Positions 15,071 to 49,327 of a stretch of 64,000 nucleotides of DNA are shown piece by piece (the stretch's first letter is position 1; every line of letters starts with the position of its first letter). Source of the stretch: Parasedimentitalea psychrophila (lineage in GTDB: Bacteria; Pseudomonadota; Alphaproteobacteria; Rhodobacterales; Rhodobacteraceae); the NCBI RefSeq assembly GCF_030285785.1, contig NZ_CP127247.1:3123501-3187500 (forward strand), written 5' to 3'. The notes beneath the pieces were generated by a model. It was not told where the DNA came from. It did not search any database and saw only the letters and a program-made list of their open reading frames with translations. The translations under genes were made by a program, and so were the position numbers.

Positions 15071-15685
15071 ATGCCCCCCATGCCCCCCAGCCTATTCGCC
15101 GGATTTATCCTTGGATTCAGCCTGATCATGGCAATTGGATCGCAGAACGCCTTTGTGCTGCGTCAGGGTTTGCGGCGCCAGCATGTGTTCTGGATCTGCC
15201 TGACTTGCGCCACCTCGGATGCGCTGCTGATCACCGGTGGTGTCATGGGGTTTGGCTCGCTGACCCTGCTCTGGCCGTGGTTTGAGCAGGCGATGCGCTG
15301 GGGTGGGGCGGGGTTTTTGATCTGGTACGGTGGCCGCAGCCTGCTGGCGGCCTGGCGAGGCGGCGAGAGCCTGGAGGCAGGGGCCAGTACTGGGGCAGGG
15401 GCGACAGTGCTGCCGGTGTTGGCAACGGTTTTGGCGCTGACTTGGCTGAACCCGCATGTCTATCTGGATACGGTGGTGCTGCTGGGGGCAATCTCGGCGC
15501 AATACCCGCAGCCACTGTGGTTTGGCATTGGCGCAGCACTGGCCAGTTTCACGTTTTTCTTTTCACTGGGCTATGGGGCGGCGGCCTTGGCGCCGCTGTT
15601 TGCCCGGCCGCGGGCCTGGCAGATTTTGGATCTGCTGGTGGGGCTGACCATGTGGGCGATTGCGGTCAAATTGTTGCTAATGTGA
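15071..15685 (+). CDS. LysE/ArgO-type basic amino-acid exporter
   Basis: 204 residues, about six membrane helices, typical LysE length. Family features: GFSLIMAIGSQNAFVLRQGL (about 14-33), the LNPHVYLDTVVLLG segment (about 135-148) and a hydrophobic C-terminus. It exports lysine and/or arginine. ATG 15071 was chosen because AGGA lies 7 nt upstream, with ATG 15080 as the alternative. It is divergent from argP, its likely activator, and followed by a long inverted repeat of family D. Confidence 0.9.
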   Translation: MPPMPPSLFAGFILGFSLIMAIGSQNAFVLRQGLRRQHVFWICLTCATSDALLITGGVMGFGSLTLLWPWFEQAMRWGGAGFLIWYGGRSLLAAWRGGESLEAGASTGAGATVLPVLATVLALTWLNPHVYLDTVVLLGAISAQYPQPLWFGIGAALASFTFFFSLGYGAAALAPLFARPRAWQILDLLVGLTMWAIAVKLLLM

Positions 15686-15715: not shown

Positions 15716-15768
15716 GCTTTGCAGGGCGGACCAGCCCACCCGCCCACCCCTGTCCCGCCCTGCAAAGC
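15716..15768. repeat. Family D inverted repeat with G4-type loop, copy 1
   Basis: GCTTTGCAGGGCGG (15716-15729) and CCGCCCTGCAAAGC (15755-15768) are perfect 14-bp arms. The 25-nt loop is C-rich on the plus strand, and its complement reads GGGGTGGGCGGGTGGG, an ideal four-tract G-quadruplex motif. The loop is nearly the same as that of the betB-betA repeat although the arms differ. It lies about 30 nt after lysE. No T-run follows. Confidence 0.8.
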
Positions 15769-17612: not shown

Positions 17613-19070
17613 ATGACTGTTACCGTTCAACCCAAGGCCAGCCATTTCATCAATGGCGCTTATGTCGAAGATACCGCCGGCACCGAAATCCCGGTGATTT
17701 ATGCGGCCACTGGCCAGCAAATTGCATCGGTTCATGCCGCCACCCCCGAGATTGTTGACATGGCGCTGGCCTCGGCCAAGGCCGGGCAAAAATCCTGGGC
17801 GGCGATGACTGGCACCGAACGGGGAAGGGTGCTGCGCCGGGCCGCCGATATCATGCGTGACCGCAACCATGATCTGTCGGTGCTGGAGACCTATGACACC
17901 GGTAAACCAATGTCGGAAACGCTCTATGTGGATGCAACGTCCGGTGCCGATGCGCTGGAATATTTTGGCGGCCTGGCCGGGTCGCTGACCGGCGAGCATA
18001 TCCCGATGGGACAGGACTGGGTCTATACCGTGCGCGAGCCACTTGGGCTCTGTGTTGGCATTGGCGCCTGGAACTATCCGACCCAGATCGCCTGCTGGAA
18101 GGCCGCACCGGCGCTGGCCTGCGGCAATGCAATGGTGTTCAAACCTTCTGAGACGACGCCGCTCTGTGCGCTGAAGGTCGCCGAGATCCTGTTTGAGGCC
18201 GGCCTGCCAGCGGGCGTGTTCAACGTTGTTCAGGGCATGGGCGAAGTTGGCGGTGCGCTGGTCACTGATCCGCGCGTTGACAAGGTCTCGCTGACCGGGT
18301 CGGCGCCAACCGGCAAAAAGGTCTATGCGGCTGCGGCTGCCGGCATGAAGCATGTCACCATGGAGCTGGGCGGCAAATCGCCGCTGATCATCTTTGACGA
18401 TGCGGATCTGGAGAACGCTGTCGGCGGCGCCATCCTGGCCAATTTCTATTCCTCGGGGCAGATCTGCTCCAATGGCACTCGGGTTTTTGTGCAAAAGGGC
18501 ATCAAGGAGGCGTTTCTGACCCGTCTGACTGAGCGGCTGGAGACGGCGGTGATTGGCGATCCGATGGATGAGGCCACTACCTTTGGCCCCATGGTCAGCG
18601 AAAATCAGCGCGACATCGCGTTGGGCTATATTGCCAAGGGTGAGGCCGAAGGGGCGCGTCTGGTTTACGGCGGCAAACAGCTGGACCGCGACGGCTGGTA
18701 TATCCAGCCCACGGTGTTTGCCGACGTCAATGATGGCATGGTAATCGCCCGCGAAGAGATCTTTGGCCCGGTGATGGCGGTGCTGGATTTTGACGATGAG
18801 GACGAGGTGATTGCCCGTGCCAATGACACCGAATTTGGTCTGGCGGCTGGGGTGTTCACCCGTGACCTAAGCCGTGGCCACCGGGTGATTGCTGCGATGG
18901 AGGCAGGCAGCTGCTTTATCAACTCGTACAATGACGCGCCGGTCGAGGCGCCCTTTGGCGGCGTCAAGGCCTCGGGTGTTGGGCGCGAGAATTCAAAAGA
19001 GGCGATCAAGCACTATAGCCAGGTGAAGTCGGTTTACGTGCGCATGGGCGACGTTGAGGCGCCGTTCTGA
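17613..19070 (+). CDS. betB: Betaine aldehyde dehydrogenase
   Basis: 485 residues, typical BetB length. It oxidises betaine aldehyde to glycine betaine with NAD(P)+. The ALDH motifs are intact: NYP-type nucleotide region [19 protein letters not shown] (about 151-169), the glycine loop [11 protein letters not shown] (226-236), catalytic Glu251 (MELGGKSP) and nucleophile Cys285 (SGQICSNGT). It is the first gene of betBA. GGAG lies 10 nt before the ATG. The 3' end is part of a long inverted repeat that also spans the gap to betA. Confidence 0.96.
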
Positions 19071-19130
19071 CCGCCCCTTTGGGCCACGCCCACCCACCCG
19101 CCCCGTCGCCCAAAGGGGCGATCAGAACGG
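19062..19130. repeat. Family D inverted repeat with G4-type loop, copy 2 (betB-betA)
   Basis: Arms 19062-19084 and 19108-19130 match at 22 of 23 positions, starting CCGTTCTGA and ending TTTGGGC. The left arm includes the betB stop codon. The 23-nt loop is C-rich, and its complement reads GGGGCGGGTGGGTGGG, a four-tract G-quadruplex motif. In mRNA the arms would form a very stable hairpin 55 nt before the betA ATG. No T-run follows, so complete termination is not expected. Confidence 0.85.
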
Positions 19131-49261: not shown

Positions 49262-49327
49262 GGCCCGCGCCTGACCTTCCCCCCGGGGAAGGCGCATATG
49301 CGCCCTCCCCAAGGTCAGGCGCGGGCC
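49262..49327 (+). other. Nested inverted repeat 2, terminator-like
   Basis: Outer arms GGCCCGCGCCTGACCTT and AAGGTCAGGCGCGGGCC (17 bp, perfect) enclose GGGGAA, the 14-bp palindrome GGCGCATATGCGCC and CTCCCC. TTTT follows on the plus strand. It is a very stable hairpin and could terminate a plus-strand transcript from the gene-free region. Confidence 0.7.

Follow-up and report, generated by a model that had tools for sequence, protein, structure and literature searches.

The window analysed here, a 64,000-nt stretch of the Parasedimentitalea psychrophila genome (NZ_CP127247.1, positions 3,123,501 to 3,187,500), contains two inverted repeats, one 3′ of a lysE-type exporter gene (15716–15768) and one between betB and betA (19072–19120), which carry almost the same C-rich loop on different arms. 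The lysE copy belongs to a widespread family of Rhodobacteraceae hairpins. The family is apparently so far undescribed, which is stated with the reserve that the search for its motif sequences in the literature, where no paper was found, did not extend to subscription literature.

Structure of the two hairpins

The arms, 14 bp long behind lysE and 13 bp between betB and betA, are each perfect and mutually unrelated, exactly as in the preliminary description of 15716–15768, the near-identical loop included (Table 1). The two hairpins are separated by 3.35 kb, rank second and third in length among the perfect hairpins of the window, and fold to a common plan of arm, 1–2-nt mismatch, 3-bp inner stem and 15-nt loop. 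Each loop is exactly CCC-N-CCC-N-CCC-N-CCC, i.e. four C-triplets with single-base spacers, so that the opposite strand reads GGGNGGGNGGGNGGG (G3N1G3N1G3N1G3); in the lysE hairpin, this minus strand is GGGTGGGCGGGTGGG, which matches the short-loop G-quadruplex consensus. In both copies the C strand is the G-skewed (leading) strand.

Table 1. Features of the lysE and betB-betA hairpins and of their preceding genes, in window coordinates.
Feature	Position	Strand	Evidence
lysE-type exporter gene, ahead of first hairpin	15071..15685	+	LysE PF01810, E=6.7e-33
lysE hairpin, left arm GCTTTGCAGGGCGG, 14 bp	15716..15729	+	perfect inverted repeat
lysE hairpin, unpaired positions	15730-15731 facing 15753-15754	+	RNA fold
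lysE hairpin, inner 3-bp stem CAG, left side	15732..15734	+	RNA fold
lysE hairpin, 15-nt loop CCCACCCGCCCACCC	15735..15749	+	identical in three congeners
lysE hairpin, inner 3-bp stem CTG, right side	15750..15752	+	RNA fold
lysE hairpin, right arm CCGCCCTGCAAAGC, 14 bp	15755..15768	+	perfect inverted repeat
betB, aldehyde dehydrogenase family, ahead of second hairpin	17613..19070	+	PF00171, E=9.4e-171
End of betB frame plus 1 nt (CCGTTCTGA = Pro-Phe-stop, then C), also outer left arm	19062..19071	+	sequence read directly, fold
betB-betA hairpin, left arm CGCCCCTTTGGGC, 13 bp	19072..19084	+	common to congeners and another genus, with paired changes
betB-betA hairpin, 15-nt loop CCCACCCACCCGCCC	19089..19103	+	identical in three congeners and a second genus
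betB-betA hairpin, right arm GCCCAAAGGGGCG, 13 bp	19108..19120	+	perfect inverted repeat
Outer right arm TCAGAACGG, inverted copy of betB 3′ end	19122..19130	+	fold, pair list

The first hairpin starts 31 nt from the lysE stop codon, and the second, with an inner 3-bp stem of ACG/CGT, is located ~35 nt ahead of betA. It is likely that betB and betA form an operon with the hairpin inside it; the neighbour of betB on the opposite strand encodes a BetI-type repressor (PF13977). In line with the mismatch bias described below, the C·A mismatch of the outer betB arms becomes G·U on the G strand, where the folded stem continues through to the predicted quadruplex cap. Since relatives without the hairpin also end betB in Pro-Phe, the downstream outer arm is most simply regarded as copied from the upstream one.

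Among the eight genomes of the genus, the lysE copy was found in three more (G003, G006 and G007) and the betB copy likewise in three more (G001, G003 and G007), and at each locus the loop was unchanged while the arms had drifted. In G007 (L071:2870-2975), the inner stem of the lysE hairpin is scrambled and the stem is partly broken, with the loop intact. The betB-betA site of another genus (G082) carries the hairpin with two paired changes, the sites in G105 and G089 have hairpins with wholly different arms, and in several other genera the hairpin is absent from this site.

Fixed loop and free arms

When 296 strict motifs were read, 221 proved to be hairpin loops, against a mean of 26 when the right arms were dealt to other copies. 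The non-redundant set comprised 116 hairpins with arms less than 75% identical, in which stem positions 2–17 paired in 79–99% of cases (31–64% with shuffled arms) and several pair types occurred at every one of these positions. Across these unrelated arms, the loop was near-invariant, with the C-strand consensus CCCRCCCRCCCACCC. The preliminary description had proposed that the loop is conserved while the arms need only pair, and this is strongly supported.

Copies from an all-genome scan were counted apart, because they came from a pattern that fixes some spacer letters. Where the search had not fixed the closing pair (72 copies), the loop spacers were A/G, A/G and mostly A (63/72), with T rare, which gives pyrimidine spacers on the G strand.

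Distribution in Rhodobacteraceae

The host genome of 5.0 Mb contains CCCNCCCNCCCNCCC in three places, one of them a C15 run and the others the loops of our two hairpins. Of 11 further places found with one mismatch allowed, two overlap these hairpins and the other nine lack a comparable stem. An exact search for CCCACCCRCCC returned ten matches, of which only three have a stem, all at the two hairpins, and BLAST of the 53-nt hairpin against plasmids gave chance-level matches only. The preliminary description had held that finding only these two copies would speak against its reading, and this is the situation in the host genome but not in the family as a whole, where there are hundreds of copies.

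The family pattern was found in 187 of 394 Rhodobacteraceae genomes, with 19–128 places in the top-count genomes, and a 17-base version (GCCCACCCRCCCACCCC) in none of ~380 genomes of alphaproteobacteria outside the family; the 17-base version is the stricter of the two patterns, so that the counts are not directly comparable. In a scan of all genomes, the matches were overwhelmingly from Rhodobacteraceae. Those from Streptomyces, Planctomycetes, Coriobacteriia, Chloroflexi and others were rejected as chance, because a comparable stem was missing and they were mostly inside genes. In a motif-independent scan of 395 kb of contigs of G044 (Rhabdonatronobacter sediminivivens IM2376), hairpins with the strict loop were a common class of intergenic hairpin, and no more than two further C-rich loops resembled decayed copies.

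In G044 (L075-L104, L225-L244), many copies derive from amplification of one arm version, AGCGCCCCCGAGCCGCG..., so that the element also acts as a dispersed repeat there. In G077, apparently Marimonas lutisalis GH1-19, the arms GCCCCCCGGCACACGG are common to L323, L353, L402, L417, L420, L425 and L428, and several of these copies have near-constant gene distances (~140 and ~240 nt), possibly within a longer repeated unit. Opposite-facing pairs of copies 100–130 bp apart were identified in G324 (C35:309194/309324, C37:675999/676110, C41:77251/77353 and C41:339980/340099).

Placement relative to genes

With gene calls from our own simple codon-usage caller, the non-redundant copies were placed between tandem genes with the C strand in sense (51) or antisense (13), between convergent genes (34) and between divergent genes (5), so that 13 tandem copies are antisense to both neighbours. 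The median distance behind the sense stop codon was 9 nt for tandem and 6.5 nt for convergent copies, with 83–94 nt to the next gene, and the left arm takes in the stop codon in 15 of the 85 sense copies. No T run follows the stem on the C-strand side, the frequency of T being 0.11–0.25 over 12 positions.

Strand asymmetry and the predicted G-quadruplex

Isolated stem mismatches, as read on the C-rich strand, were A·C (46), C·C (22), T·C (22) and G·T (4), and the excess of A·C over G·T has a binomial p of 4e-10. From composition only, A·C and G·T would be expected in about equal share, and G·G in many cases. In the copies without a fixed closing pair, i.e. leaving out those of the all-genome scan, C took part in 60 mismatches and G in one. 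In four of the genomes that carry the family, ordinary 3′ hairpins read in the sense direction had the opposite bias (43 G·T vs 21 A·C), also when a T-rich tail followed (16 vs 2).

Read on the G-rich strand, the mismatches of the family become G·T, G·G and G·A. In established nucleic-acid thermodynamics these are the mildest mismatches. In addition, no such mismatch provides an unpaired C able to invade the G tracts. The pattern itself, with four G-triplets and short loops on one strand, matches the G3N1-3 type of G-quadruplex, and when quadruplexes were allowed in folding, ~35 kcal/mol were gained on the G strand only; for the G strand of the lysE hairpin, the energy was −70.5 kcal/mol with and −34.1 kcal/mol without quadruplex-aware folding.

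The mismatch rule favours the G strand, short of proof, since the C loop may need to stay unpaired. Together, mismatch asymmetry and polarity (see below) point to the G-rich strand as the functional form, a hairpin with a predicted G-quadruplex cap, and the conservation of the loop fits this form as well. Of the functions suggested in the preliminary description, a sense C-rich, anti-Shine-Dalgarno-like RNA loop is disfavoured, because no other mismatches would harm a C-rich RNA hairpin more, or the G-rich strand less; its label of a G4 loop is the best fit.

Orientation along the replichores

Adjacent copies on one contig were mostly same-facing in five genomes, i.e. in 41/41 pairs (G077), 12/12 (G103), 10/10 (G260), 28/35 (G025), and 24/28 in the fifth. 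In G246, every match at 0.30–2.15 Mb has the same strand, the opposite strand holds 10 of the 11 at 2.97–4.85 Mb, and the orientation of the copies tracks the sign of the GC skew. Strand polarity along the replichores, considered here as a possible sign of a KOPS/AIMS-type signal, was seen in G077, G246, G103 and G260 and was absent in G044, the genome with the most copies (34/71), and in G370 (4/7); it is weak in G324 (31/48). Background gene direction had only a mild bias. The G077 copies between convergent genes all follow the contig direction, and as a convergent site is in sense to one gene either way, the polarity in this genome does not derive from gene direction.

A possible one-way barrier at gene ends

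The placement at stop codons, the tolerance of copies between close tandem genes and the preference for the sense orientation suggest a barrier to polymerase coming from downstream, or a roadblock on the template strand. The reading that we consider most likely is a barrier at gene 3′ ends which acts on transcription in a direction-dependent way. As a complete model, of a family of gene-3′-end hairpins with the G strand as working form, a quadruplex cap and one-way action on transcription, it is put forward tentatively, with chances somewhat short of even.

The G-rich strand is the one that serves as template when the gene ahead of it is transcribed, and where the copies are polarised it is also the leading-strand template. 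The sense transcript would form only an ordinary C-looped hairpin, past which the polymerase could read on, while a polymerase arriving from the opposite side would either make an RNA with a quadruplex-capped hairpin or be blocked by the folded G-rich DNA strand, and in this way the 3′ end of the gene would be protected against antisense transcription or readthrough. Polarity may arise if the leading-strand template can accommodate a fold of this stability and the lagging-strand template cannot. The arms probably grow by inverted copying of flanking sequence, as suggested by the Pro-Phe-stop end of betB mirrored downstream of the hairpin, and copying from the flank would give each locus its own arms. 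More speculatively, and with a rather low probability in our estimate, the quadruplex-capped hairpins could serve as a clade-specific, one-way genetic punctuation that lets transcription leave a gene but not enter it backwards, the loop being the active part, the arms locally copied and the orientation constrained by replication.

Several observations do not suit the barrier model. The polarity is absent in G044 and weak in G324, 13 tandem copies are antisense to both neighbours, and the nearly G-free mismatches of the C strand would also fit an unpaired C loop or a Rho-like excess of C over G in mRNA. Moreover, there is no U tract on the C-strand side, and the model gives no mechanism by which an RNA hairpin with a quadruplex cap, but no U tract, would halt RNA polymerase.

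Hundreds of sequence-defined quadruplex-in-hairpin sites with matched empty orthologous sites would allow a direct test of chromosomal G-quadruplexes in bacteria, where the question, which spans transcription termination, antisense control and replication conflicts, is largely open. The combination of fixed loop and free arms also shows a possible origin of palindromes by local copying, and the family could aid annotation of transcript ends in GC-rich bacteria without U-tailed terminators.

Alternative explanations

The strongest rival is an element of the sense RNA, in which Rho, another C-binding protein or a partner RNA would bind the single-stranded C loop in the 3′ region of the mRNA, with an effect on termination or 3′-end stability. 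Such an element would have the C strand in mRNA sense close behind the stop codon, as in 51 of 64 tandem cases (median 9 nt), a loop conserved in its own sequence, down to one spacer with A in 63 of 72 copies, and a C strand without unpaired G, which would leave the loop accessible and shift the balance from G towards C, a feature also of Rho sites. We regard it as possible but unlikely, since G·U pairs, which an RNA stem tolerates without harm, rank with the least frequent mismatches of the sense strand (four, as opposed to 46 A·C) and ordinary 3′ hairpins in the same genomes have the opposite bias; nor does it predict replication polarity, and the 13 antisense tandem copies are against it.

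Alternatively, the palindromes might be a mutational by-product with no selected function, arising when replication stalls at a quadruplex-forming seed and the flank is copied as an inverted repeat through template switching. Near-perfect arms private to every locus, arms that may take in the coding end (betB at 19122–19130; the 15 of 85 sense copies) and polarity with replication would follow from such a process. It is nevertheless improbable, considering that the lysE loop stays unchanged among congeners while the arms drift, that the same betB-betA site in other genera keeps the loop with wholly different arms, and that the mismatch asymmetry, the strong sense preference and the spacing to stop codons are left over.

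A signal of replication or chromosome architecture, i.e. a polar leading/lagging-strand motif used in a KOPS/AIMS-like manner with gene ends merely tolerant of insertion, would explain the near-complete replichore polarity of G077, G246, G103 and G260, with its tracking of GC skew in G246. This too we consider quite improbable, because G044, with most copies, is unpolarised, the 5-Mb host genome holds only two copies, and the close spacing to the sense stop codon is not accounted for.

As strong hairpins located behind genes, the copies resemble ordinary intrinsic (Rho-independent) terminators, an assignment made very improbable by the lack of a T run and hence of a U-rich tract, by the long stems with a 15-nt loop, by G·U pairs on the wrong strand and by copies between close operon genes.

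In REPs, the arms and not the loop are expected to be conserved. The mobile palindromic element of the preliminary description, in the form of REPs spread by a RAYT (Y1) transposase, hardly deserves credence in spite of the many intergenic palindromic copies and the amplified arm sequence of G044, since the 116 hairpins have a common loop on arms less than 75% identical, a dominant arm family was seen only in G044, and the cognate transposase domain (Y1_Tnp, PF01797) was found in one of nine high-copy genomes and is missing from the other eight; the RAYT link was therefore rejected.

Comparison with known systems

Literature searches on neighbouring topics led to no systems other than those compared here. 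Rfam covariance models gave no match in the window at the gathering threshold, the best sub-threshold match (E=2) being unrelated. Like the hairpins here, intrinsic terminators as modelled by TransTermHP are at gene 3′ ends and common between convergent genes (PMC1852404), but the present family has no T tail, a fixed 15-nt loop, free arms and G·U-type pairs on the antisense strand. The uptake-sequence hairpins of Neisseria and Pasteurellaceae also have a clade-specific conserved motif near gene ends (PMC1852404); there the motif is in the arms, whereas here it is the loop, and the arms are free.

The tandem repeats GGGAATC of Xanthomonas and GGGGA(C/T)T of Nostoc are likewise intergenic, quadruplex-forming and nearer to the upstream gene (PMC4692102). 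For the Xanthomonas repeats, no leading/lagging preference has been reported (PMC4692102), while the present sequences are hairpin loops and in some genomes almost fully polarised. The TMECO/PIT intrastrand-triplex motif of E. coli is G/C-rich, intergenic and hairpin-like, and can fold within one strand (PMC4666352), but its stems are more conserved than its loops and it has no strand bias.

REP/BIME palindromes with RAYT transposases are also intergenic palindromes between operon genes, and differ in that the conserved part here is the loop and almost all high-copy genomes lack the RAYT domain. The Cuckoo/CcsR RNAs of Rhodobacter are a further case of alphaproteobacterial hairpins whose loops are C-rich. 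The CcsR sRNAs are in one operon with a DUF1127 gene (PMC10253847), unlike the hundreds of separate copies behind many different genes, without Rfam match, of the present family.

Other repeated hairpins

Another repeated hairpin of the host genome, with arms GCGCCTGACCTT, was identified at 49262–49327 of the window and at L266:10993, L277:3505 and L278:15547. Its loop, CCCCCCGGG(G)AAGGCGC...CCC, holds a second small hairpin, and the element is REP-like with conserved arms. A further host repeat consists of GTTGGGCGTGGCGCCGCGC-AAA-type hairpins 3′ of genes (L274:4682 and L274:18601, similar in L270, L271 and L272). A distinct element in L055, L068 and L070 comprises a self-complementary GGGTGGGTGGGCCCGCCCACCCACCC-type hairpin followed by a small GGGGGC-GCCCCC hairpin.
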